A stretch of 21,293 nt of DNA. Origin: Baffinella frigidus. Taxonomy: Eukaryota > Cryptophyceae > Cryptomonadales > Baffinellaceae. The notes under the pieces were generated by a model. The model did not search any database and was not told the DNA's origin. It saw only the letters and a program-made list of their open reading frames with translations. Where the stretch lies: the NCBI GenBank assembly GCA_026770585.1, contig MU646308.1:1886137-1907429 (forward strand). The letters are read 5' to 3'. Within the stretch, counting starts at the first letter, position 1, and every line of letters begins with the position of its first letter. Positions 1 to 21,189 of this stretch are shown here, in pieces. Position numbers and translations under genes: made by a program.

Positions 1-3000
1 ACCACAGTCCAGTCGTCTTCGAGGACGCGGTTGGCGTGCCCCCCCAGGTTGATCATCGGCTGCACACGGGGGGAGGGGGGAGACGTCAGACCACCACACC
101 TCGGTCGGATCGCGAGGGGGCAAACGGATCATTTTAATTTGGGTACACATTCGAAAAAATAGTACGAGTCGTGTCCAACTTGTGGGCGCTAGACTTCCCA
201 TTTGGAAGGCTAGCCACAAATTACCCGATCCGTTTGCCCCCTCGCGATCCGAGCAAGGTGGGGTACTAGTGAAAAAGGACACGGATCGCCCCTCAGGGTG
301 GTCCTATACTCCCTAGGACTGGGCATACCGCAGGACCCTAGTGGCTATACGTCTCGAGGTAGTGAAGTCACTGTAAAATCAGTGAATTTGTACCAGATTA
401 CGGCCTGGTCAAACCACCCAGACGTATAGCCACCGAGCAAGGTGGGGGGTACTAAGGGAAAAGGACACGGATCGTCCCTCAGGGTGGTCATATACTCCCT
501 AGGACTAGGCATACCGTAGGACCCTAGGGCGGCGCGTGTCCTTAATTTCGAGTAGTCCCTGTACCCCTCCAAGTGAAGCATCGTGACCAGTGAAGATTGC
601 CGAACAGCAGAGGCGTGACTCTTCAGTATCAGTCTACTCTCGCTGTATATGTATACATACGTATATGTAGTGCCATGGTAGTTATATATACGTATATGTA
701 GTGGCATAGCTCCTACCCTCACTACCCACATCGCCTGCAGATGAGGGGGGGCGCCTATCCCCGTTTCCTCTAAAACACAGAGGGTGGCCAGAGGGCTGAC
801 ACCGTTCGAGGATCCCCCAACCACTCTGGGAATTCCCTACTTGGGCGTGTGACTACCACTCAGAAGGCTACGGGTTACCTCGCTCATACGGAGGCGCACC
901 CCCCTGGGACCCGACAGTACATAGGGCCTGTCCCTAGAACCCTTCGGTGCATCTGGGGGGGCGCGCGGCTCTTTATGAGCAAGGTACCCCTGTACTCCTC
1001 CAAGTAAAGCTAAATTTAGGATCCGTCTCTTCGGATTGTGACGAGAATGGTCACGTACCCCCCAGATATCCGGGGAGGTAGGTTCATCGTAGCCTTCTGA
1101 GTGGTAGGGAAGGACCTCGATCGTGAAGATGTGGCCCGGGGCCGTTACTGGCAAAAGGATTGGCAATGTGTTTGGGAACAGTTTAGATTGACCGATTCCC
1201 GAAGCCACCAATTGCTGCTGAGTGGGACCGGACCTCGATAGGCAAGATATGGCCGGGGGGCATCGTCCCCTGGTTCTCGATCGAGTGGTAGTGAACGATC
1301 GAGGCATGAAACCCTCAAACACTGAAGGAATTCCTTACTTGAGCGTGTTCCCACTGGCCACTTCAAAGTGACCGACGCTAATCACTTGACTACAGTGGGC
1401 TTCAACGGGGATTCCGACCAGAATTCTGGCCGAACGTCCGGTCATTCCTTAACAATGGATAAAATGTGTACCAGGAAAACTGATGGGACATTCTCTGCGA
1501 AGCCGAGCGCACCGCTAGCCAGGATGTTTTGCTACAGCCAACCCCCCTTGAAACTGACCACTTTAGAATCCAAAACGCCCACGGGCGTCCATTTTACTCC
1601 ACCTCTCTCCCGTTTTGGTCACAGTTGACTAATAAAAAATCTTCCGGCTAGCAGTGCAGTGTGTAGCGGGGCGTACCTCAATGGTGAAGATATGGCCCGG
1701 GGCCATCGTGCCGTGGTTCTGGATGGAGTGATAGTGGACGATGGAGGGCGTGGTGTGGAACACTCGCCCGACCCCGTGTCCGCAGTAGTTGCGCGTCGTC
1801 GACATTCCCCGCGCTGTTAGGGTTGAGGGTTAGGGGTGAGGTGTGAGGTGTGAGGTGTGAGGGTTGAGGTGTGAGGGGTGAGGGGTGAGGGGTGAGGGGT
1901 AAGGGGTAAGGGGTGAGGGTTGAGGGGTGAGGGGTGAGGGTCAAGGGTTGAGGGGTAAGGGGTGAGGGTTGAGGGTTGAGGGTTGAGGGGTGAGGGTTGA
2001 GGGTTGAGGGTTGAGGGGTGAGGGTTGAGGGTTGATAATTAGGGTTGAGGGCAGCACCAGAAGGGCATACGAGGCTGCTTAATCATGAGGGTTAAGGATG
2101 CAGAGATGAGAGTTCACGGTTCAGAGGAGAAGAGGGGGGTTTAAGGTTCAGGATTGAGGGTGGGCGGGGCGCGTACTTTCAACGTATTCTTGGATTACTC
2201 CCCCGATTTTCGAGTAGGGCACCCCGGGCCTGGTTGAGGGTTTAGGGTTCAGGGCTTAGGGTTTAGGGTTTCGGGTTTCGGGTTAAGAGTTTAGGGTGTA
2301 GAGTTTAGGGTTTAGAGTTTAGGGTTCATGGTTTAGGGGTGCGGCGGGGTTCGGGACCGGCAAATTGCGATCGCGGCTCGCCACGCGTCGTAGGTGACCT
2401 GCTCATTTCACCCCCGATTCAGAGAGAGAGGGAGAGGGAGAGATAGAGCGAGAGAGCGAGAGAGAGAGACAGCGCTTGAGAGAGAGCGAGCGAGACTGAG
2501 AGACAGAGCGAGAGAGAGATAGAGAACTTTATTACTACCAACACGTATGGCCAGCCATGTATCTACCCCCACTGAGGCTGTGCCCGAGGATTTCATTTCA
2601 AACCCGAGTGTGCTATCGCCAGGGTGAGTTTTGCCACCTCAGCCTGGCAGCCTTACCGTGGCACGGAACCACTAGATAGCACAGGGGGAAAAAACGGGGA
2701 CCCTCTTCGGAAGGCACCGGTGTCTTTGAAGTGGGCCCCGCCTCTCTTTTCTCCGCTACAACCATGAAACCTCATCCCTGTATCCTTAACCCTGATCCTC
2801 CATTATCATCGTGTGCCCAACTGGTGCCGGGTTGCAGGTTCATCGCGTCCCGTAACAGATTCTATTTTGCAAAGCGTCCACCTAAAGGATTTCCAGTACA
2901 AATCTTGGTAGTTTGAATCCTAAAATACTGAAATGACTCCAATGCCAAGCCAAATCTGAGAACGAATCTATCAGGTGACGAGAATAAGGTGAGCCTGCTA

Positions 3001-6000
3001 GCTCTGCCTGGCTAAAACTTGGCTCCCCATAAAAGCATTTTAGTTGCCCCTTTGTGCTCGAGTTTCTGCTCTAAATGTGTTTTATGAAAAGAACAAAGTT
3101 TTACTCAGGTAGAAAGGAGGCGGGCCCGTTATAAAGCTGATAGACTATCGGACCACTCAACTTAAGACTGGAGAGTAATACAGAAGAAGAAGAAGAAGCG
3201 GACACTTAGCAGCGACCGAGGAACTTTTCGCCTTGAATTCAAGGTGAAATTCCGGTTAGGTTAGAGGGCAATGGATACGATTCTAGTACACATTATGAGG
3301 ATGGACTGTATCCGTAAAGCCCCCAGTGGCTGCTAAGTGGACGAAGAAGAAGAAGAAGAAGAAGAAGAAGAAGGACCTGGAGGCGGCGCCTGGCATCGCC
3401 TAGTCACGTGACCAACCTCAACAAAGTTACTACACACAGGCTACATCTCGGTTTTAATTAGGCGCCTTGAGCAGTCTGGCGTGGCAGGACCTGGATGAGG
3501 CGCCTGGCATCCTCGTCAGGCTCGCCCGCCACGAACATCTCGCTGCCACACACAGGTTGTGAGCACCCCGCCACGGGCCCGCCTGTGGGCGCTCGTGCCT
3601 GTTACGGGCCCGCCTCGGGGCGAGAGCCCCAGATCAACGTGACATTAATGCGGGGGGAAATAACCTGATGTCGCCCTGGAAGCCTCGGAAGTAGCATGAC
3701 ACGTCAATGTTCACCAGGGCAAATAACTTTTTTGCTATCTTCTGGGTGGGTTGCATGCTACGGTAAGGCTATATCGAGGCTTATATGGCAGATTCCACCC
3801 TCAAGATAGCACAAAAAGATGTTTGGCATTGAACCTGATTTCGCATATAATCAGCGCCTGTTCTCGCCGTGGAAGCCAAGCGAGGCACTTGCTTCCAATG
3901 CGGGGGCCACTGGGCGTGAAACCATGAATCCTGCCTCCCTCGTTCTCGAAGGGTTCCCTTCTTCCCTCGCCAGGAGTCACGAGGTTCACGGCTGGGGGTG
4001 CCCACAACCTGTGTGTGTGTGGCAGCGAGGGAAACACTATAACCTGTTGTCGCCATGGAAGCCTTTGAAGTAGCACGACACGTCAATGTTGACGAGATCG
4101 CCATCCACGAAGATCCGGTTTTCGTCCGGGATCCCGTGGCATACCACCTGCTCGAACCCAACGGCTGTGAGACCACACACCAGACTTCCAAGGGATTTTG
4201 CATAAGGTTGTGAGAAGAGCCGCGAACGAAACAGAGGTTTCTGAGCATATCAAATGGGCACATCAACCGAACCCACCGGTTGTGAGACCACAAACCGGAC
4301 TAAACACGTGCTGTGGAAACACAGGCCAGCCTTCTAAACTCCGTAGACACACCCGTGGCGCGGAGACTCCCACGACTGTTGACTCATCAGAGTGTTGCCT
4401 GATATTACGCCTGCCTTGCCACACAGCGGACTTCGAAGGGATTTTGAACAACTCCTAAGCGACAAGACCTACGACCCTACGGTAGGCAACCCGTAGGGAC
4501 ATAAGGGGGGTTCTACGGATAAGGTGACGGAAGGTGCCCCGATTTGGGCCGAACGTCCCTTCGTAGCCCGGTGTGAGAATCGCCGAGAACGAAACAGAAG
4601 GTTGTGAGCACATCAACCGAGCACGTCAACCGAGCACATCAACTGAGCACAGCTCGACGACAGAGGACCAGTACGGGAGGTGCTGGAGGGCGGATTGGAG
4701 CATACGGCGAGCGAGGGTTTATGGTTGCGGGTTCGGGGTTTGGGTTTCGGGTTTGGGATTTTGGGTTGAGGGGTTCGGGGTTAGGGTTCTTGGTTCAGGG
4801 TTCAGGGTTCAGGGTTCAGGGTTTGGGGTTTATAGTTTCGGGTCCAGCACACCTCATTGACCGACGTGCAAACGCTCCGGGGGAAGTTGCGGTAGTTGAG
4901 CGGCGAGGGGTACGCGCCCCGCTTGATCGTCTCCTGCGGGGAACGCCGAGGTTTGTTAATTTGTCAGGTTTGTTAAGTTGACATGCACGACCGCGGTATG
5001 GAGCCAGGGGGAGAGGTGGGACGAGACCTCCTTGTGGTGCAGCACCAGCTGGGGGGAAAGCCGAGGGTTCAATGAATTGTCAAACACGACCGCTGTTCGC
5101 CAGATGGACAAGTGGGGTGAGACGTGAGGGCTCTAGTCACCTCGTGCACGATCGCGTAGATCTCGTCGGTTGACACCCCCGCCGTTAAGTTGACATACAC
5201 AAACGCGGTATGCAGCCAGGGAGAGAGGTGGGACGATATCTGCGTCTTCTTCTTTATTGACCTCTTCAAGTACCTACAAACAGGTCCCTGGAGCTTTCTG
5301 GAAAGTGATCAACTTAATAACTTGGGTGGGGCGAGACCTCATGCACGATCGCGTCGATCGCGTCGGTCGAGACGCCCACCGCCACCGCCCGCCCTGCGAC
5401 GTCCAACACCTGCCGTGCGGCATTCAGGTCCTTCAGGTTCTTCGAGCTCCCAACATAGGCGGACACTGGAACTGGGATCGTGGTTTCAGGTATGGGCCGT
5501 GTGGACGCTAGGCGGAGCCCACCCGTCCACCATGCCGGTTTCCACCATGCGGGATTGCAGGAATCGGACCTAGACTGGAATTCGGCCATGTGGGCACCTT
5601 GAGCGCCTGGATAACCTCCCCGGCACATCCACACACCTATCCTCTCCACACGCCCAGACCGCAAAGCTCTTTCGAAAGAAAACGGACCCCTGGGTCAAGC
5701 TATGTCCAGCATCTACTGCCGCCCACCACCAACCCTCACGGGCTGAGCAAATCGATGATTTTCGGTTTTCAATTTCAAGGTAAAATGGCCCACGGACGCC
5801 GGAATCCGGCAGCCTTCCAGGGATATACGGGACCTCACATTCGACGATTTGCTCTGGCTGTGAGGGTTGGTGGCACCTACCATGCCGTCAGCAGTCAGGT
5901 CCACTCGCAGAGACCCGCTGGCACTTTGCTCAGTTGTTCTCTGAGTCTCAGAAAAGAACTGATTAAAAGGATTACGAGAATGAGGTGCGGGACTGCGTGG

Positions 6001-6604
6001 GGATCACGTCGTAGGAGATGCGGCCACCTTCAGCGCTCACTCTCCATGCTGTTAACATCCACTTGCACGTCTCCGCCCGTGGGCCACCAGCCACCACACG
6101 TGAACAACATCGAGCGATCGCAAAAGTTGATTTTGCCTGGGTCATGAACCCTCAAGGTTTATACCTTGGTGAAATCGCCCACAGGGCTCCATATCGCGAT
6201 TTGGTGCTCTCCTGTTGGCTGGTGGGGCGCTTTTCTCCTCGGGGATGCACCTCGCGGGAGATGCGGCCAGCCTCGCGCGCGCACGCGATGTCCTCCGCGC
6301 TGTTCATGGGGATCTTCCACGGCAACTTCGGCACCGAGCCCTTCGGGACGCCGTCCTCCGCGTAGTCCGGCCGCGGAATGTGCGGCGGCACGGTTCGCTT
6401 GGGGTCCATGCCGCCGCTCCCCGGGGTTCCCCGCGCCACGGCCAGGAGCTGCTCGATCGCGCTCGAGAAGCTTCCCGTCATTGCCCGCATCGGCACGGGA
6501 GCGATGCGGTTGGGAGGCGACGCCGTGGCCCACCATGATGCGCCGCGGTGCGCCAGAACGCCGACGGAGCGCAGCGTGGAGATTCGCGAAACCATCGCAC
6601 GCAT
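1..6604 (-). CDS. METAP1D: Type I methionine aminopeptidase, organelle type, nine exons, C-terminus beyond window
   Basis: This enzyme removes the initiator methionine from nascent proteins, probably in mitochondrion or plastid. Exons on the minus strand: 6604-6251, 5409-5338, 4933-4853, 4147-4044, 3542-3491, 2398-2358, 2229-2177, 1813-1677, 59-1. All phases match and give 317 residues plus two bases. Residues 1-45 are rich in Arg, Ser and Ala, as in a transit peptide. [11 protein letters not shown] is the family's pre-catalytic motif. Active-site residues are visible: H173 (VVCHGIPD), D191 (VNIDV), D202 (FHGDN), H265 ([11 protein letters not shown]), H272 and E298 (IFTIE). The fifth metal ligand, a Glu, should lie past the left edge. 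EDDWTVV in exon 9 matches the family C-terminal region. M1 at 6604 or M4 at 6595 (better context) could start; the frame is open to 6748. Intron borders are GT-AG. The gene is divergent from the EF-hand gene. Family assignment is firm; the organellar location is inferred. Confidence 0.93.
106..251. mobile_element. Short inverted-repeat (MITE-like) element, 25-bp perfect termini
   Basis: The arms 106-130 and 227-251 are perfect inverted repeats of 25 bp (outer end CGGATCGCGAG). Inside, a second hairpin spans about 180-220 around CTTCCCATTTGGAAG. There is no coding capacity. It lies in the last intron of the methionine aminopeptidase gene. Confidence 0.75.
251..527. repeat. Pair of ~92-bp direct repeats flanking a 93-bp inverted-repeat insert
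   Basis: Positions 251-341 and 435-527 are close direct copies (GAGCAAGGTGGGG...GGACCCTAG). Between them, 341-433 has perfect 14-bp inverted termini (GTGGCTATACGTCT). The direct repeats could be a large duplication made when the small element inserted. Confidence 0.7.
871..990. mobile_element. MITE-like element, TACCTCGCTCA family, copy 1
   Basis: Imperfect inverted termini (TTACCTCGCTCAT on the left, ATGAGCAAGGTACC on the right), each followed inward by a C- or G-run. A second copy is at 13888-14002. Confidence 0.6.
1116..1305 (-). repeat. Two nested tail copies of methionine aminopeptidase exon 8
   Basis: Positions 1234-1305 encode 24 residues of the exon 8 end ([14 protein letters not shown]...PIE), then GTCCGG. 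Positions 1116-1142 encode only the last nine (APGHIFTIE), then GTCCTT. The true exon has 45 codons and donor GTACGC. The three copies shorten in the direction of transcription. Confidence 0.9.
1815..2035. repeat. Degenerate telomere-like array, G-rich on plus strand
   Basis: Variants of GGGTTGAGGGGTGAG fill intron 7 of the methionine aminopeptidase gene. On the transcribed strand the array is C-rich and runs directly into the exon 8 acceptor (CCCTAACAG). Confidence 0.9.
2231..2340. repeat. TTTAGGG-type degenerate array
   Basis: Runs of GGGTTTAGGGTTTCGGG in intron 6. On the sense strand it reads CCCTAAACCC and ends in CCCTCAACCAG, the exon 7 acceptor. Confidence 0.9.
2419..2525. repeat. (GA)n purine tract in intron 5
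   Basis: Imperfect GAGAGA tract of about 105 bp. On the sense (minus) strand it is (CT)n and lies just upstream of the exon 6 acceptor at 2399-2401, where it can act as a polypyrimidine tract. Confidence 0.85.
2526..3202. other. Rest of intron 5: no gene recognised
   Basis: Unique-looking intronic sequence. I see no exon-like stretch, RNA gene or clear inverted repeat. Near its high-coordinate end a (GAA)n tract begins, interrupted by the next element. Confidence 0.5.
3203..3339. mobile_element. MITE-like element, CACTTAGCAGC family, copy 1, inside (GAA)n
   Basis: Termini CACTTAGCAGC and GCTGCTAAGTG. GAA repeats lie on both sides (about 3184-3198 and 3343-3373), so the element inserted into a microsatellite. 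It is about 88% identical by eye to the reverse complement of 11130-11266. Confidence 0.8.
3377..3397 (-). repeat. Tail copy of methionine aminopeptidase exon 5
   Basis: Encodes DARRRLQ, matching DARRLIQ at the end of exon 5, followed by GTCCTT (true donor GTCCTG). A (GAA)n microsatellite begins immediately after the donor-like site. Confidence 0.75.
3665..3717 (-). repeat. Tail copy of methionine aminopeptidase exon 4
   Basis: Encodes [17 protein letters not shown], the second half of exon 4, and ends at GTTATT as the true exon ends at GTTATA. The metal-binding Asp of NIDV is kept, but HGDN has become QGDI, so it could not supply the second ligand region intact. Confidence 0.85.
3731..3813. 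mobile_element. Short inverted-repeat element in intron 4
   Basis: Termini TGCTATCTTCTGGGTGG and CCACCCTCAAGATAGCA are near-perfect inverted repeats about 50 bp apart. Related TATGCTAT ends occur at about 9283-9326 and 14733. Confidence 0.6.
4419..4575. mobile_element. MITE-like element, CCACACAGCGG family, copy 1
   Basis: Starts CCACACAGCGGACTTCGAAG and ends CCCGGTGTGAG. The whole unit matches the reverse complement of 10552-10713, including the internal CTACGGTAGGCAA. It lies in intron 3 of the methionine aminopeptidase gene. A third partial copy is near 16210-16260. Confidence 0.75.
4716..4846. repeat. GGGTTC/GGGTTT degenerate array
   Basis: Repeats of GGGTTCAGGG and GGGTTTCGGG lie directly behind the exon 3 donor (sense strand GTGTGCTGG then CCC-rich repeats). 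Confidence 0.9.
5028..5182 (-). repeat. Two tail copies of methionine aminopeptidase exon 2
   Basis: Positions 5141-5182 encode [14 protein letters not shown], matching the last 14 codons of exon 2, followed by donor-like GTGACT. A second, decayed copy ends at 5028 (CACAAGGAG) and continues with GTCTCGTCCCACC, nearly identical to the true start of intron 2 (GTCTCGCCCCACC). A further ~60-bp direct repeat (4972-5032 and 5184-5242) links the two. The 5141-5182 copy has no obvious acceptor, so it is more likely a relic than an alternative exon. Confidence 0.8.
5726..5873. mobile_element. MITE-like element in intron 1
   Basis: Arms 5726-5754 and 5845-5873 are inverted repeats matching at about 26 of 29 positions (outer end CCACCAACCCTCAC, inner end GAGCAAATCG). 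No coding capacity. Confidence 0.7.
6008..6025 (-). repeat. Tail copy of methionine aminopeptidase exon 1
   Basis: Inside intron 1 the minus strand repeats the end of exon 1 (GGCCGCATCTCC...) and runs into GTGATCCCC, close to the true donor GTGCATCCCC. It encodes GRISYD against GRISRE in the real exon. Confidence 0.7.
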
Positions 6605-7358
6605 TCTGTGTATTCCAGCGAATAGAACGCCGGCCGAATCTGGAAAGGGTCGGGCGTTCGTCGTTGTCAGAGATTTTGGCTGTGGTCTGGGACAGGTCGT
6701 CCCCACTACAGCCATGCTCTCATCTATCACATCTGTGATAGAGATCAAGCAAGGTGCTTTCTCAGCATCTGTGATAGCGCAAGGTGCTTTCTCGGCGGAT
6801 CAGTCGCAGAGGCAGGCGAAGATTCGCTGTCTCTTTCAGTGCTCCAGCATCGCTATAGATGCTGGCCCTAGCTCACTGCGCCCCCACATCGCTTTCTCTT
6901 GTGCACGTTTTTGACTCGTGGGGCTGTTCCGGCAAGAGCAAAGATTCTTCAATACTTGGATACATTTCACAAGGTCCAGCCTGTCCTTCACTCGCAGCAC
7001 CACGATCCGGCGAGGCACGCCGTGTGGTGCGCATGCCAGAGCTACCCTGGCGGCTGTAGGCTGCGACCTGCCGGTTGGTCTCGTCTTCGTTATTTCCCTG
7101 CGCCCAGACGATCGCAAAAGGTGACTTTTGCAGCCGAAAGATTTCCCATCAAGTCAACTGCACTGGCAAAGAGAATCTTAAGTCACATACCCAGGGCTTG
7201 TCGACTTACTAGTGAAATGTTTGCTAGGTACATTTTCTAATTCATCCAGTCATCATCATGGATAAGCATATCCTCCAGGTTGTCTAATTTGACGGTCTCT
7301 CCAAGACAAACGACGGCGGCGGTCTCTGAGTAGGCTTTGGACGTTTTTTTCACCAGCA
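6605..7358. promoter_or_regulatory. Shared spacer between divergent genes
   Basis: The methionine aminopeptidase and EF-hand genes are transcribed away from this ~750-bp segment, so it should hold both promoters. It contains the palindrome CTATCAC-ATCT-GTGATAG (6724-6741), a tandem duplication (6730-6765 and 6766-6795, both ending CAAGGTGCTTTCTC), and small hairpins at 6844-6865 (CCAGCATC stems) and 7114-7131 (GCAAAAG stems). No TATA box is obvious. The promoter role is inferred from gene orientation. Confidence 0.55.
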
Positions 7359-10300
7359 ATGGGGTGCGGCGCCTCCTGCGGTCGCGCCGCCAAACCTTTT
7401 CACGAACCTGCCAACAATTCTGTGAAGCACGCGCCCGATGAGATCGTTTCCGGCGTTTCGATCGCAGCAGCGCCTCTCCCAGAACCTCCAAAGTCAGTAT
7501 GGCGCGAGACCCCTCACCCGGAGAACGAGGGCGCACCGCAGCCTTCGGGGGACGGGTCGCCACAAAACTTCGATGAGGCCAGGCCAGGTGAGCAGGCAAC
7601 CGTGGTACCGCTAAGGAGAAATAGGAGCGGTTATAAGCGCACCTAACCGTCGCGAATGTGAACAGGGCGGTCCGTGTCACGAGGTGAAAGCGGCGGGAAA
7701 GAACAGAAGCAAGCTTGGCGCGCTGTGCGGGCGGCTCAAGAGTCCGGTAATCCCACCACTCTTGAATGAACCGGGCGGGGTTTTGTAAGGACGATACCTA
7801 AACCGTGAACCATTGTCTCAACTCTGAAGTTAGGTGTGATTTCTGGAGGAGGATACCATGGGCAGACCTCGACCGGGCAGAACTCGAAATCTGAACAGGC
7901 GGGTTCGCTGCCCGTACAACCAGTCCTGAGAGACCGACTTTCGGGCCGTACGAATATCCGTTTCCATTTCCCCAAAAAATCTCTTGATCACAGTTTTTGA
8001 AACCAACACCGGGACTCACTCCCCTGCTAACGGAGAGAAGCAGGGGAGTGAGTTATTTTGTGTTTGGATTCTGGCTCAGTTTTTCATGGAAGACGGCCCA
8101 GGTGCGGGAAAGTATGAGGTTTGAATTTTGGGAAGCATGCATTTTGCAGATATGGATTGTGGCAGCGAAATTGCATCCGGGAAAGAGTCTTTTCCGCTCA
8201 AAACAAGAAAACCCTGCTTAACCTCATGGTGAAATCTCCTGAAGGCGACTTGTGGTTGTCTAAGGCCCGATCCAAGTCCAGTGACCTCTGGGAGATAGGA
8301 ACTGTGGCTACTAAACGGGGGGTGTCTTGTTTTTATAGCTACTAAACGGGGGGTGTCTTGTTTTCGGTCTGCAGGAAAAGGCTCGGAACCTGGGAGATTG
8401 CGTCGCGCCCGCACCCCGAGCGTCGCGTTTCGTGGCCACAGGCGCGGGTAAACTTCGATGTTCCTACGAACCTGTCATAATAATTCAATTCATACGATTG
8501 GTTCGATATAGAACTGATATGCTCGGTGAAATCCTGTGTTTTTCCTGTAAGATGATTACTCGTGCGCAGATATTGTAAGAAATCGTGTAAACCTTAATCT
8601 CCGTAAAAGTATTAAATAATTGCGTCTGGGCAACGCAAGTTACTACACGATTGGACCATACTAGTAATAATAAAGCATTTGTAAAATAAATTTTGGTGCG
8701 CCAAAAGCTAGTCATAGTAAAGCATTTGTGGAATGGATTTTGTTGCGCCAAACGTACGTATACTACAACTCATATAAGTATTCCCTGCAGTCCTGCAGTA
8801 GGGCCCTAGGGCAGCTAGTCCGTGTACGAGCAATTAATCAATACTTTTACGGAGATGAACCTGAGACCGCCCCGTACCACGGTAGGACATGGGTCAGAAT
8901 TTCAGGACGCAACGTTTCATTTCGTGGTACTAAATGGTACGTAGCCACCATCGATTTCGCAGCTACTCGTTCTTTCCATGTCCGATCCGAATACAAAATT
9001 TCGGACCCGGGTACACTTTTTTATAAAAGACTTGTAGTAGCTGAAATTCCGACAAACGACCTGACGTGGACCACTCGAGAACGCTAGCAGGACCTGTTTC
9101 AAACTGCTTTTACAAGTGGGCTTTTGTATAGGAACTTTCGTGCGTTGGGTCACGCTCCTGTGCGAAAATTGCAGGGTCGCCGGATAACGTACTTTTTCTG
9201 GTACAGATTCTTACGACCCCACATGTAAATAGGCTGCAACCCCTGTTCTCGGGAAACAGGTTCGAGCGCTTAAGATAAGGGTGGATATGCTATGTCAGGC
9301 ATGCAACCAAGGCTTAAGATAGCATAAAAGCGCAACTGATTCAGTCATGTTCCGAGATCAGGTTCAAGTGGCGGCTGGACCAGACAGGCGGGGCGCTATC
9401 GAGAGGGGACTTGGGGCACGGCCTTGAGGTTTCTCCCCCCATCCTTCTTCCTCTTCCTCTTCTTCTTCTTCTTCTTGATTACTCTCGACATACGTCCTAG
9501 GCCCTTGAGCCATGAGTTGAGTATAAATCATAGGGCGCTATCCAGAGGAGACTTTGGGCACGGCCTTGAGGTTTCAACCCCCTGCGCCTGCATTGTTGGC
9601 GGGTGGTACCCGAAACCCGAAATCCGAAACGCGGAACCCGAAACGCGGAACCCGGGACCCGAAACCCGAAACCTGAAACTCGGATCCCTCACTCTCGCGC
9701 GGGGTGGTAGAAGTTGGTGGCTGAAGATGTTTTCGGTTGGCGTGTCTCTCCTTGATGCTGTAGCCCGCCTGGTCTCTTTCCATTGAAGTTGGTTTCGGGT
9801 AGCAGGACACGCAGGAGGACGACGCAATCACCCTTTTTAAATGTCGATTGTAGGCGTTTTGTGGGGATTTGGTCACGTGTCGCCCGGTTAAAGCGGGCGA
9901 CACGTGACCAAACACATAAAAATTACTACGCACTTGAAAATCCGGACTTTGAAGTCAGGATCGTGTGGGGTGGCAGGACACGCAAGAGGATGACGCGATC
10001 TCAGCCCTCTTCCGCGGCCTGGACCTCAACCAGGACGGCCAGGTCCACATACCACTGAGCAGCCCCCGATTTTTGTCTTCCCCCGATTTCCGGGGATCAT
10101 TTCAAGCCCCTTACCCTGAAATGAAGAGAAGTTTGTGCCACAATGGTTTAGATGGACATCAGCGAAGGCCCCGGTGGCTGCTAAGTGGAAAATTCAGCCT
10201 CGGATTGGTAATGCCGCATCTTACCGAGAGATCGGATCTCAGCTAGGACGGCCAGGGTCCACACGCCTCCCAAGTCAACACTTTTGGGAGTCTCGGAGTG

Positions 10301-13300
10301 TGGTCGGTGCATGCTGAATTGCGGGAGCGCGTGGATATCATAAGTTGACGGGATAGTTGGCATAAGTTAACCCCCCCCCCCCCTCACGAGCAGATCACGG
10401 CGGAAGATTTTGTGCGATCAGGAGCGCCAGGGGGTGGCCAACAGGTGCTTATGATAATTCAAATGCATATTTTTATTGCTCCCTCCCCACAATCTGCCAG
10501 CCAGACCGAAAAAAGTCCATCCACGCGAAAAGTTGACGGTGTTTGACTTAGCCACACAGCGGGCTATGCAGGGATTTTTGGCCGGATTCTAATAACCTTT
10601 CCGTTACCTTATTCGTAGGAACCCCCCTATGTCCCTACGCTATTGCCTACCGTAGGTTCACAGGTCTTATCGCTTAATGGTTATTCGAAATGCCTTCGAA
10701 GTCCGCTGTGTGGTTCCGAACAGAGCCGAAACTCGAGGGAGCCCGGCCGAAAAATGCTAGGCACGGCACGAGAATGACCTCCTTAAGCCACCCCGTGGAC
10801 TACGAGGGTTTCGCTGGGGCTGGATTTTAGGGTGTTACGTGACCAATTTGCGTTAGCAGCCTTGAAGTAAATTGTCTCTGGACAAGTCGACTTTTGATGG
10901 AAGGTTCGTAGTCCACCGTGTGGTGTTGGTGTATGCAGGGTCAACGTTCGCCTTCTTGACACAGAATCCATGTCCCACAGGCCCCGAGTCCCAAAACCTC
11001 AATCCCAACTCCCGAAACCCCCCATTCCTAAACACGAAACAACAACCCGGTGTTCCGCTTGAAGAACGCTGCCCACCAAAAGTCGAGGGTGGAACGTCTC
11101 AACGCAAAAGTGGAACCTCCGTCAACTTACCACTTAGCAGCCACCGGGGGGCTTCACGGATACAGTCCATCTAAACGATTTGTACTAGACCCGTATCCAT
11201 TGCCCTCTAGCCTAACCGGAATTTCACCTTGAATTCAAGACAAGGTCCTCGGTCGCTGCTAAGTGGGTAACGGTGAAAAACTTAAAAATAGGCGAGCACG
11301 CGGAGGTATAATCGCCAGGCCCTAGATATGCCCTCAAGCCTTGAGTTGAGTGATGAAATAGTCTAAGAGCCTGAAGGAACGAGCCCGCCTCGGGAACAGG
11401 CGAGCACGCGGGGGTACACTCGGCGATTCTCCAACACCTTTTTCTCGGCCACTGCCAGCCAGGTCCGCCCAACCCCCCTCCTGAACCCCACTCTGAGTAT
11501 TATGTCCCCTCCTCAACCCCACTCTGAGTATTCTGACCCCTCCGCAACCCCACTCTGAGTATTCTCAGTATTCCATCCCTTTCCCGTAATCCTTGGTCCC
11601 TAATCCCTCATCTCTCATCCCTAATCCCTCATCCCGCATCCCTCATCCCTCATCCCTTATCCCTCATCCCTAATCCCCAATCCCTATTCCCGAACCCCGG
11701 ATCCCGGATCCCGAATCCATGAACGTGATTCTGAAGTTTTACAGTCTGAGGTTTTGACAAAACGCCAAAAGTGGCCGGAATGGAGCCTGTGTTGATGATT
11801 TCATCCCAATCTGTGGCTGACAGTTGCGAAAACCGCTCTACCCTCTTACCTGCCCTGCAAACAGGTTCCAACCTTCTGAAAAGTGATCAGCTCATTAACC
11901 ACGCGAGAGCAGATATCCGCGGTATTGACAACGGTAGGCCGCAGGGGCCTAGGGGGGCTCCTTAAAAAAAACCGGGCCTAGGGATGAGCTGACAGCGAAC
12001 CGCGCATGCAGACAACTGCGTACGATCAGCTGGCAAACGCGACGCTCGACAATGCCAACCAGGCAAGCTCTGAGGGTTGCGGGGTCAGGGGTGAGGGTCT
12101 GGTTTTAGGGTCTAAGTTGTAGGGTACGGATGCCCTTCGGAAAAGGGTTTTTGTTGGAGCGACTTGCAGGGGGGCATGATTTTGGGTCGACACTCGACAA
12201 CGCCAACCAGGCAAACTTCACCATCAGTTTGACCATCAATTTGACTATCAATTTGACAAAAGCTAACCAGGCAAGCTCTCTTCCTCTTCTTCTTCCTCTT
12301 CTTCTTCATTACTCTTGCAACAGGCCCTAGATGGGCCCGTAAGCCTCGAGTTAGGTCATACAAAATTTTACGAGCCAGGCAAGCTCTCAGGGTTTCGGGG
12401 TTAGGAGTTAGGTTCAAAGCGCGCATGACCCTAAACCCTAAACCCCTCAACCGCTGCACCCTGAACCCTACACGGTAAATCCCTCCCAGCAGCCCGCTCA
12501 CCCCGACTCTTTCCCTCGTCCACCCCTCTCCCCCACCTCCTTGAAATCTAAACGCCTACCCCCTACATATTACAGACTCTAAAACCTGAGACCTGAAACA
12601 CATGAACGCTTAACTCTGAACCCTGAACCCTGAACCCTGAACCCTGAACCCTGAACCCTGAACCCTGAACCCTGATCCCTGAACCCTGAACCCTGTACCC
12701 TGAACCCTCAACCCCGCATCCCGAACTATGATCCCTCAACTCTGGACCTTGAACCCTGCACCCTGAACCTGCACCCTTAACCTTCGACCCTGACCTCTCA
12801 ACCCTGCACCCTCAACCCACAACCCTGCACTCTGAACCGCGCACCCTGAACCCTGAACCCTGAACCCTCTAGCAGGCGCTGTGGGAAGCAACCAAGAAGA
12901 TCGCTTGCGGCGGGGGAGACATAGCCGCGTAACCCCCCCCCCCATCCCGAAACCGTGAAACGCACCAAACCCTAAACCCTTGGCGGGAGAGACAGCCGCG
13001 TAACCCCCCCCTCATCCCGAACCCGTAAAACGCACCAAACCCTACACCCTAAACTCTAAACCATGTACCCGGAACTCTGAACTATGCACCCTGAACCGAA
13101 ACCTGAAATCCGACGAAACCATGAAACGTACCCCGCCCGAAATCCTGAAACGTGACCCGTGGATCCTCGACCCGAAATCTTGCCCCCCTGAAAGTCGCTC
13201 CCACAAGATCCCTTCTCCGAGGGGATTGCATACCCTACTCCTCAGACCCTGTAATCAGACCCTAAACCAGAAACCCTGAACCCGTAACCAGAAACCCCAA

Positions 13301-14987: not shown

Positions 14988-15950
14988 AGTTGACTAACCA
15001 GAGATCCGGCGCGTGTTCTGAACACGCTTGGGGTTTCTGGTTTCTGGTTTCTGGTTTCTGGATGTTAGATGTATGGTTTCTGGTTGTGGCGACACCCTAC
15101 AGCCCACTCGGGGAAACCGAGTGGACTCCCTGTTCCCCACGGCTGTTCCCTCGACGAACAGAAAGATCGGTGTTGCCACCAACATGGGCTGAAAGGGGAG
15201 CGTTTTTGGTGAACATTGACTGAATGGATGAAATGAGGTATGAAACCTGTCGTAGACGTTTTTCCAATACATATTTAGGAAGGTTCTGTCAGCTGCATGC
15301 CCCCACACGGAGGGTAGGGTGCTGCCGCCGGAGAGAGCAGGAAATGAGACAGGTTTTGCGTTTTGTACGGACTTGGTCACGTTTCGCCCCGAAAAGCGGG
15401 GCGACACGTGACCAAACATGTAAAAATCACTACACACTACAGCTCCCCGGGTTTTCAAAGGGGTGTTTGATGCGCCTCGTGTGGCCTCGTGTGGGAGAGC
15501 AGGAGACGAGGCAGGCTCGCGCGGGGTGGAAGGAGCGCCTCTCTGCCCGTCTTTACATCCCTGAGCCCCCCCGCGATTCTGTTTTGTACGGAGTTGTTCA
15601 CGTGTCGCCCCGCTTTTCGGAGCGACACGTGACCAAAAATGTGCAAATTACTACACGCTACATCACTTGTACAGCTCCCCGGGTTTTAAAAAGGTTGTTT
15701 GATGCGCCTCGTGTGGCCTCGTGTGGGAGAGCAGGAGACGAGGCAGGATCGCGCGGGGTGGAAGGAGCGCCTTCCGTAGGTTCCTAATTCATGCTATACC
15801 GTAGGGCGACACGGAATGCCGATTTTTTTTTAAAAGCAGTGGCTTGGGGAGAACAGGAAATGCAACGGAATTGGAGCCTTTCCCTCAAGAAGTATACCAA
15901 CGGTTCCAATTCCCGATAGTGCACTGAAAAGGGTGGCCTGGAGAGAGCAG
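14988..15950. other. Repeat-rich spacer downstream of the EF-hand gene
   Basis: Holds a (TTTCTGG)n run at about 15030-15062, the hairpin CCACTCGG-GGAAA-CCGAGTGG (15102-15122), two CACGTG hairpin elements (15375-15413, 15596-15634) and a tandem duplication of about 225 bp that carries them (shared CAGCTCCCCGGGTTTT and GATGCGCCTCGTGTGGCC). Nearly complete copies of the exon at 15951 are included. No promoter was recognised. Confidence 0.6.
15503..15580 (+). repeat. Near-complete copy of the unassigned exon at 15951
   Basis: Encodes ETRQARAGWKERLSARLYIP and six more codons behind GAGAGCAG. A shorter head copy is at 15735-15772, and a fragment (GAAATGAGACAGG) near 15340. The 15503 copy lacks the GCG-GTAACT donor of the main exon. 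Confidence 0.7.
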
Positions 15951-16031
15951 GAGACGAGGCAGGATCGCGTGGGTTGGAAGGAGCGCCTCTCCGCCCGGCT
16001 CGACGTCCCTGATGCCCCGCGCGATTCCGCG
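15951..16031 (+). CDS. Unassigned 27-codon exon (GWKERLSARLDVP)
   Basis: An acceptor (GAGAGAGCAG) and a donor (GCG|GTAACT) enclose 81 nt open in phase 0. It encodes ETRQDRVGWKERLSARLDVP followed by DAPRDSA. Multiple head copies upstream and tail copies downstream mark it as a genuine exon by comparison with the assigned genes. I do not recognise the family and cannot place its partner exons. Possible partners are short open pieces near 16316-16351 (HAIKFDGQE before GTCCTAG) and 16597-16625. It could belong to a separate gene between the EF-hand and NWD-type genes. Confidence 0.45.
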
Positions 16032-16063
16032 GTAACTCCCACCCCTCACAGGGGTCACGCGAC

Positions 16064-16453
16064 CCCGCGTGATTCTACGGTAAGGGTGGACACCCTAGTT
16101 CCGGCGCCAACTTGATTCCGGCATTTCGTATCATCCAACTGTATAGGATACGGTAGCCTTGCCGTCCCTGATGTCCTGCGTGATTCCGCGGTAAGGGTGG
16201 ACACCCTAGCCACACAACGGACTTTGAATGGATTTCGAATAACCCATACGCGGTAAGACAGGGACGTTCCGGATGCCCCACGTGATTCCGCGGTAAGGGC
16301 GCTACCGTATGCCTTAAGTGGCCATGCCATCAAATTTGACGGCCAAGAGGTCCTAGGCAGGTCCTAGGGCCCTACGGTAGGGCGTATGAGCCTACTGGCC
16401 ACTGAAGGGATACCGTGTCGACTCGACGTGCCTCAGGCCCCGCTTGATTCCGC
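16064..16453 (+). repeat. Four tail copies of the exon at 15951
   Basis: Ends at 16079, 16190, 16292 and 16453. Each carries a version of CCCCGCGTGATTCCGCG; the first three are followed by GTAAGG and the last by GAATG. They encode forms of APRDSA. Here the copies do not shorten strictly in order. Confidence 0.8.
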
Positions 16454-16469
16454 GGAATGTCATACCCCA

Positions 16470-20399: not shown

Positions 20400-21161
20400 T
20401 TATTCTTGTTTATTGTAATAAATAAAATGTTTAGTTTTTGTATGGTGTGCGTCATATGTTTTATCATAAATATTAAGGTCTTCAATATCAAAGATTAATT
20501 CAGTTACGAAATTTAATTCTAAACATATCAACATATGACATTGAAACGCTTTTAAATCGTTCTTTGAGAAGAATTTATATATATCGGATGATTTAGATTT
20601 ATACATAGCATTACAACCTAATATATACGGGGGGTCTAAAAAAAGCATTGTATGATTATCATTAACATATTCTTTGACCAAATCCAAGCCGTCCTTTTCG
20701 GAAATTTCAATATTAGCATTTTGTAAAAAGTCCATAAACGGACAATTTAAAATATTACGATGTCCTACTTTTTTATTAGAAGGATATAAACCTTCACGCA
20801 TTGTATAATACAAATTTCCTAATATGTAACCACCAACACCATCTTTTTTTTTAATATCATATGTTTCTTTTGTCATAGTGCTACAAAATTCATTAATTTC
20901 TTCATTTATCATTTGTAATTCATCAGGGCTATCTTTAGCCATTCGTAAAAGTTCTATTAAATGAAAGTCCATATCATTTAAAACATATTTAATGTCTTTG
21001 TCTTTATTTTGTGTCCATACATAATATGAAAAAGCACAACTCCCACAATATGGTTCTATTATGGTTTTGATATCGTCTATTCTGTTTTTAAATGTATCAT
21101 ATAGTCTTTCGACTTCTTGTCTTTTATTGCCGCTGTATGGAAAAAAGAAATGATTCTTCAT
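20400..21161 (-). CDS. D12-class N6-adenine DNA methyltransferase, 253 residues
   Basis: This enzyme transfers a methyl group from S-adenosylmethionine to N6 of adenine in a short DNA site. Motif order is that of the Dam/D12 class: motif X PYSGNK (8-13) and motif I IIEPYCGSCAFSYY (34-47), both cofactor binding; ND at 62-63; a variable target-recognition part (about 70-165); and catalytic motif IV LFLDPPY (173-179). Length is normal for the class and no break is seen. The ATG at 21161 lies 28 bp from the stop of the upstream gene, suggesting a compact cluster. Codons are overwhelmingly A/T-ending, unlike the host exons, and there are no introns. Such genes are common in algal DNA viruses, polinton-like viruses, phages and bacteria. 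The target site and the source cannot be read from the sequence. Confidence 0.93.
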   Translation of the reverse strand: MKNHFFFPYSGNKRQEVERLYDTFKNRIDDIKTIIEPYCGSCAFSYYVWTQNKDKDIKYVLNDMDFHLIELLRMAKDSPDELQMINEEINEFCSTMTKETYDIKKKDGVGGYILGNLYYTMREGLYPSNKKVGHRNILNCPFMDFLQNANIEISEKDGLDLVKEYVNDNHTMLFLDPPYILGCNAMYKSKSSDIYKFFSKNDLKAFQCHMLICLELNFVTELIFDIEDLNIYDKTYDAHHTKTKHFIYYNKQE

Positions 21162-21189
21162 TATACTTTAATGTAAGAAAAAAAATCAT

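Follow-up and report, generated by a model that had tools for sequence, protein, structure and literature searches.

Introns of two genes of Baffinella frigidus, a cryptophyte (single-celled alga), carry truncated copies of the ends of the exons next to them, with tails of exons and their donor sites lying downstream of the exon and heads of exons and their acceptor sites lying upstream. Most probably the copies stem from break repair in which a short segment is duplicated on either side of filler DNA, with splicing shaping which of them survive, and it is possible that we are dealing with a known kind of duplication in a new form, one with a bias toward splice edges. We lean toward the full form of this account, in which the introns are built by repeated local break-repair duplication around filler and the survivors are filtered by splicing.

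Genes and sequence compared

The window, by which we mean the whole stretch of DNA that was analysed, closes contig C6 of an assembly of 382 Mb and 1,364 contigs and comprises the final 21,293 bases of that contig. The published genome of strain CCMP2293 is given as 534.5 Mb with 53.9% GC (PMC9756366), and the word "intron" is absent from the accessible portion of the main text of that paper. Positions of about 1–6600 on the minus strand hold a methionine aminopeptidase (MetAP) gene, the spliced model of which matches structure 2g6p (methionine aminopeptidase 1) with an E value of 4e-74. A predicted protein, P0121, equals this spliced model at 100% identity over 99% of the query, and as its source contigs are at most 1,274 bases long, and thus shorter than the intron-containing gene, it lends support to the exon model; when mapped back, it recovers seven of the nine exons directly (all except 2 and 6) at the filter used.

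The second gene, encoding threonine synthase (ThrS), lies on contig C15 in two adjoining stretches (the end of L013, and L029) of 12,957 bases together. Its spliced model matches the threonine synthase structure 4f4f (E 5e-54), and its exons agree with an MMETSP protein as well as with a B. frigidus protein record, the latter translating the first exons in a different frame. We number the ThrS exons by a list of 16; an extra exon between exons 6 and 7 was recognised later by means of the MMETSP protein and is included in the shuffle, pseudo-edge and clipping comparisons below. Exons 13 to 16 are placed by homology alone, and the end of exon 15 is assumed and set at the end of its copy; exon 15 is omitted where stated. 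The readable sequence compared comes to 101,548 bases overall.

Rfam and tRNA scans of the whole window returned no matches. Its AT-rich tail, at the end of the contig, contains a 255-residue open frame (20403–21167, minus strand) with a DPPY motif, which we take to be a feature of DNA adenine methylases, and the frame is possibly of viral origin.

Copies of exon ends in the MetAP gene

The MetAP exons and their copies are all on the minus strand, and in a self-comparison each copy sits in the intron downstream of its exon. The coding part of exon 1 (6251–6595; a 100% match to residues 1–116 of P0121) has a tail copy with donor at 5999–6048 (76% identity over 51 columns), and exon 2 (5338–5409; gene model, structure match and protein match) has one at 5139–5184 (85% over 46 nt). 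Exon 4 (4044–4147; gene model and P0121) is represented twice, by a short tail copy at 3857–3877 (90% over 21 nt), followed by GC instead of GT, and by a longer one at 3660–3717 (88% over 58 nt) with the donor GTTAT; between the two lies a dispersed short element (3720–3846), about 2 nt from one copy and 10 nt from the other. The copy of exon 5 (3491–3542; gene model and P0121) is diverged and takes in the whole exon with short flanks (3372–3440; 73% over 73 columns). Exon 8 (1677–1813; a 100% match to residues 251–295 of P0121) is followed by a tail copy with donor at 1229–1304 (82% over 76 nt) and by a second, shorter one at 1107–1143 (84% over 37 nt), both running through the GAG/GT border. 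The earlier note had described two copies of the exon 8 tail in the intron that follows it, and a like arrangement after exons 1, 2, 4 and 5; the self-comparison and exon search bear out both descriptions. Exons 3 (4853–4933; gene model and P0121), 6 (2358–2398; gene model) and 7 (2177–2229; gene model and P0121) have no copy in their neighbouring introns, and exon 9 (1–59; gene model and P0121) runs past the end of the window.

The same introns contain inverted repeats. One of these, with 96% identity between 3547–3569 and 3995–4017, is situated near both ends of intron 4 and, judged by eye, extends into the first bases of exon 5; the two ends of the intron could pair through it. Further pairs are found at 93–130/227–264, 853–885/1075–1107, 5726–5754/5845–5873 and 6084–6112/6197–6225, and some of the pairs lie near the edges of copies.

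Number, polarity and splice signals of the copies

When each exon with 80 nt flanks is compared with its two neighbouring introns, 45 exon-derived matches are obtained, 7 in MetAP and 38 in ThrS, where they are denser; 29 lie downstream of their exon and 16 upstream, and two (both of exon 9) have less than 70% identity and may be low complexity. Chance had been dismissed in the earlier note as a source of such copies, and for the two genes tested it is excluded: dinucleotide shuffles (12 rounds per gene, with at most 2 matches in any round) give means of 0 for MetAP and 0.17 for ThrS, compared with 7 and, in a ThrS rerun with the extra exon, 39 matches in the real sequence.

The polarity of the copies is pronounced. 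The 3' edge of the exon, whether donor or coding end, is reached by 28 of the 29 downstream copies (27 of 28 without exon 15), the sole exception being an inner piece of ThrS exon 1, and the acceptor is reached by all 16 upstream copies. The facing edge is reached by 30 of 33 copies of real exons as against 31 of 89 copies of intron pseudo-exons. The idea that only donor-side tails are copied does not hold, as heads with acceptors also occur upstream of exons and a few copies are whole exons. Whole-exon matches make up 4 of the 45 (MetAP exon 5 and ThrS exons 9, 10 and 16), of which that of exon 9, at 61% identity, may be low complexity; most copies are truncated heads or tails. The further statement that every copy is followed by GT is correct for 20 of the 24 tail copies of donor-bearing exons and fails for others, such as that at 3857–3877 and the last copy of the exon at 15951 (see below). 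AG precedes 13 of the 15 head copies.

Two arrangements in ThrS are more elaborate. At L029:6700–7170 the last exon is present twice in full, the stop codon being intact both times, and the doubled exon has a short head copy before it and a short tail copy after it. At L013:8490–8800, in intron 3, minisatellite-like GTGTCAGACACACC units are mixed with tail copies of exon 3.

With repeats masked, 80-nt windows taken from introns have local copies in 17 of 45 cases for MetAP and 18 of 41 for ThrS, and exons have them in 4 of 9 and 11 of 16 cases respectively. Because intron windows too carry local copies, local duplication is general in both genes and not exon-specific; such duplications are common inside introns, though in this small sample they may be biased toward splice edges. 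We read the polarity as a mark of selection, the message remaining intact only if the duplication spans a splice site.

Copies at other loci

Elsewhere in the window, an exon on the plus strand at 15951–16031 (start taken from the earlier note; repeats and motif search) has both head and tail copies, likewise on the plus strand. The head copies, each after AG, lie at 15503–15579 (87% over 85 nt including flank) and, in shorter form, at 15735–15774 (repeat and motif; end by eye). Tail copies followed by GTAAG are found at 16058–16079 (motif; start by eye; a repeat joins 16064–16098 with 16175–16209), 16155–16190 and 16257–16292 (both repeat and motif), and another, at 16419–16454 (repeat and motif), is followed by GAATG and has no donor. 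In all, the motif search finds four tail-like and four head-like places for this exon, most of which recur as repeats in the self-comparison; the tails agree with the layout that had been claimed for it. The EF-hand and NWD-type genes to which the same layout had been ascribed are unconfirmed, Pfam giving no families in 7300–12299, the stretch scanned. At 12040–12408 there are repeated tail-like pieces with a CCAG end and then GCAAG, which resemble GC donors.

Sequence read directly in another locus, L014, contains one whole-exon copy and head copies with AG. A further locus with another M24 peptidase exon, L002, has a single 16-nt repeat, so the copy pattern is not everywhere. We also examined the ends of local repeats in an annotation-free way. 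Conserved GT looks enriched in the redundant set, at 81 of 146 ends (mean 62.8), and is not enriched in 78 non-redundant clusters, where it is found at 37 (33.5, sd 3.8). AG at the opposite end is found in 89 of 146 (66.2) and, non-redundantly, in 46 of 78 (37.8, sd 3.8), and the control dinucleotide CT rises equally (46 vs 37.3). When 34 other repeat clusters are oriented by the strand of their arrays, 25 of 34 score in sense and 20 of 34 in antisense, which is not significant (p=0.15). As these annotation-free tests are weak or non-significant, the generality of the copies rests on the two gene models and a few examples read directly.

A model for the origin of the copies

We propose that either a break whose ends are widely staggered or some equivalent slip in copying would leave a segment D of about 20–80 nt on each side of an inserted spacer F (D-F-D); this spacer could consist of telomere-like repeat, of a dispersed element of short length or of DNA of another kind. 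Within an intron such an event would always be tolerated. At an exon it would be tolerated only where D spans the splice site, in which case F and one D would become intron, and this restriction would place donor-bearing tails downstream of exons and acceptor-bearing heads upstream. The leftover copy would then decay as non-coding DNA, keeping its splice signal for a time and possibly serving as a decoy splice site.

The anatomy in this model is seen in both genes. A contiguous segment lies on both sides of inserted DNA, and it runs through the facing edge in 27 of 28 downstream and 16 of 16 upstream copies; the duplicated segment has a median length of 58 nt and the spacer a median of 179 nt. 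No site without its insertion came to light in the sequence compared. The earlier note had suggested staggered-break repair or insertion with long target duplication, acting at the exon-intron border and giving nested, shrinking copies of exon 3' ends. The succession of exonic segment, spacer and exonic segment agrees with the first part of that suggestion, and the donor-only and shrinking parts are unsupported.

How far the copies resemble known systems can be stated for several of these. In tandem exon duplication the sequence of an exon is repeated in the next intron, and here too exon sequence recurs in the next intron, but only a few of the copies are whole exons. Related work on small tandem duplications at staggered breaks in plants has reportedly been done by Schiml in 2016 and by Vaughn and Bennetzen in 2014. 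Break repair produces small duplications and, where breaks are staggered, tens of nucleotides are directly duplicated at the break, as here (Schimmel 2021, PMC8355091); the duplications described here differ in being recurrent at one exon edge, with many per gene, in having long spacers and in frequently stopping near the splice site. Among the titles and abstract openings listed for introners, Baffinella, cryptophyte introns, telomere-like repeats in introns and at breaks, exon duplication and patch-mediated duplication, we found no description of the exon-edge copy layout.

Homology often stops close to the exon edge

The extent of the copies on either side of the junction was determined for 41 of the 45 (two were dropped for identity below 70%, one for having fewer than 15 exon nucleotides and one for lacking a junction). 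Extending outward from the junction, the exon part has a median of 40 nt (range 16–81) and the intron part a median of 6 nt; for unrelated junctions the extension has a median of 3 and a long-tailed distribution. In 51% of these copies the intron part does not exceed 6 nt, compared with 23% under uniform placement of the junction in segments of the same lengths. If the best copy per edge is taken, with exon 15 omitted and pseudo-edges placed on one grid of intron windows, 10 of 16 exon edges and 2 of 14 pseudo-edges lose homology within the first 6 nt of intron (Fisher p=0.009; Mann-Whitney p=0.009). With all copies the figures are 15 of 30 and 3 of 31, the control windows in this case overlapping. 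At least 19 nt of intron is aligned in 13 of the 41 copies, and in 10 of 30 in the all-copies comparison, some of the alignment being weak. Intron homology displaced farther from the edge is clear in ThrS exon 11 and seldom seen elsewhere, and several of the high scores are overlapping sequence. A simulated control, in which 0.5 to 5% of intron parts were short, exaggerated the contrast and was rejected as unfair, because exon parts no shorter than 16 nt had supplied its intron parts.

A splice-edge bias, significant in this small sample of two genes, is therefore possible, and the early stop of homology at exon edges is a feature that a pure splicing-selection filter would leave unexplained. 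The inference, made earlier from the sequence, that anchoring at the border implies a mechanism acting there is thereby weakened: the polarity is expected from selection on splicing, and what is left of the argument is the edge bias (10 of 16 vs 2 of 14).

These data bring in the most serious alternative, a lesion specific to splice edges, in which breaks or copying stops would cluster a few nucleotides into the intron and so cause repeated duplication of the exonic DNA that ends at the border; the site might be, for example, the edge of an RNA-DNA hybrid formed by the spliced RNA, or AGGT-like sites. The disparity between exon and intron parts in the 41 copies and both edge comparisons are what such a lesion would produce, and by our reasoning splice sites in competition with one another should yield the reverse pattern. 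However, about a third of the copies have at least 19 nt of aligned intron, and the bias comes from two genes only, the 34 other clusters giving p=0.15. We regard this alternative as rather unlikely. We hold as a tentative, minority view that splice edges are fragile in this lineage, with a lesion tied to transcription or splicing arising a few nucleotides into the intron and its repair duplicating the edge around filler; if that were true, fragile edges would make introns grow from their ends and would give rise to decoy splice sites in actual use by the cell.

Dispersed elements and telomere-like repeats in the spacers

The dispersed element that separates the tail copies of MetAP exon 4 (about 3720–3846) has at least 45 matches (40 scored of 134 candidates), two of which are in the MetAP locus. 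Among the 43 matches listed outside that locus, counted by hand, 15 start at query positions 70–72, corresponding to window positions 3719–3721, and 8 end at query position 197. In the 126-nt spacer before ThrS exon 13, a dispersed element with 79% identity to that in MetAP intron 4 (window 3726–3815) takes up positions of about 3 to 122. Some spacers are made up of telomere-like repeat or of such an element, though these assignable spacers are a minority. Dispersed repeats cover at least 60% of 4 of 32 spacers, and there is no excess of them in spacers, where their mean coverage is 0.18, over other intron sequence, where it is 0.23 (32 spacers; about 100 kb compared).

Another conceivable origin is the insertion of introner-like elements at splice edges or close to them, with long target duplication, the end of the element becoming the new splice site. 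Introners, too, are short dispersed elements of aquatic protists that are associated with introns and splice sites, and the family found between the exon 4 tail copies, with its relative in the spacer of the ThrS exon 13 head copy, fits this proposal. However, target duplications are reported as 3–9 bp for introners (Gozashti 2022, PMC9860276) and 3–5 nt in Amoebophrya (PMC7789003), whereas the duplicated exon parts here are 16–81 nt long and variable. Moreover, only the four spacers of 32 are recognisably a single element, AG or GT stands at truncated ends in 10 of 25 and 6 of 15 cases, like other dinucleotides, and in the cases read an existing intron has been lengthened, with copies lying inside existing introns. 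An introner-like origin is improbable in our view.

Sense arrays of a telomere-like repeat are present in 13 of 16 ThrS introns and 3 of 8 MetAP introns, and CCCTAAA-like units in the introns of the two genes are in sense and antisense in a ratio of 241:20 (MetAP 40:10, ThrS 201:10); across all of L014, where the gene strand was judged by eye, there are 134 in sense and 19 in antisense. Telomere-like intron arrays are mostly sense in L014, in the ThrS stretches (L013/L029), in window 1–6700 and at other loci, and their orientation may mark gene direction in this genome. The repeats are C-rich with a branch-point-like CTAAC, and may therefore serve acceptors. Telomerase can add repeats at breaks, and among interstitial telomeric insertions a flanking duplication was present at 6 of 130 in rodents and 4 of 25 in primates (Nergadze 2007, PMC2246262). 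The copies described here have telomere-like filler in common with such insertions, but their arrays are degenerate, mostly sense and common in introns.

Decay of the copies and use of a copied acceptor

The differences between 42 copies and their exons comprise 120 synonymous and 135 non-synonymous changes, a synonymous share of 47%; 26% is expected for random change and, by our own arithmetic, about 42% if the copy evolves neutrally and the exon is under constraint. By this measure the copies largely resemble dead, non-coding DNA. Divergence has no trend with distance from the exon, farther copies not being reliably more diverged, and the "nested, shrinking" order that had been described is not upheld: among 19 neighbour pairs, the copy lying farther away is the shorter one 11 times, the longer one 7 times and of equal length once (p=0.24).

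The MMETSP protein P0001 tracks the ThrS exons through exon 12, then continues with 35 residues whose coding sequence lies at the head copy of exon 13 and in the element that follows this copy; it stops one residue later, where the genome has a different residue followed by a stop. Judged from transcript-derived protein sequences, and not from reads, a copied acceptor is used in at least one assembled transcript.

That the copies are working alternative exons under selection would agree with this protein, with the two full copies of the last ThrS exon, each with its own stop codon, and with a synonymous share slightly above the expectation for a neutral copy, but that share is also near the neutral one, truncation affects the majority of copies, the isoform with the exon 13 head copy enters the spacer and ends, and P0121, the MetAP protein recovered, consists of the spliced exons and contains none of the intron copies; we consider this explanation very improbable. 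Equally hard to credit is the pasting of spliced RNA back into the genome, for although homology often ends at the exon edge, a search for exon-exon junctions gives no crossing matches for MetAP and only two in all, both in the intron before ThrS exon 10 and both exon 10 head copies, where the intron end TCAACTTTCAG resembles the end of the preceding exon TCAACATTCAG, and several copies have at least 20 nt of intron beside the exon. The likeness itself, between the end of ThrS exon 9 (TCAACATTCAG) and that of the following intron (TCAACTTTCAG; L029:1620–1700 and 2380–2400), is a possible trace of intron gain via a short target duplication.

Implications for intron growth and splicing

The traces described here bear on the growth of introns and the origin of new splice sites. 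They occur often in two genes, are of an age that still permits alignment and are tied to known exons, making the process countable, datable and comparable between strains. Should the splice-edge bias hold genome-wide, it would provide a testable tie between DNA damage and splicing. The use of a copied acceptor in a transcript suggests that intron debris is costly to the cell, or else that it can be raw material for new splicing.
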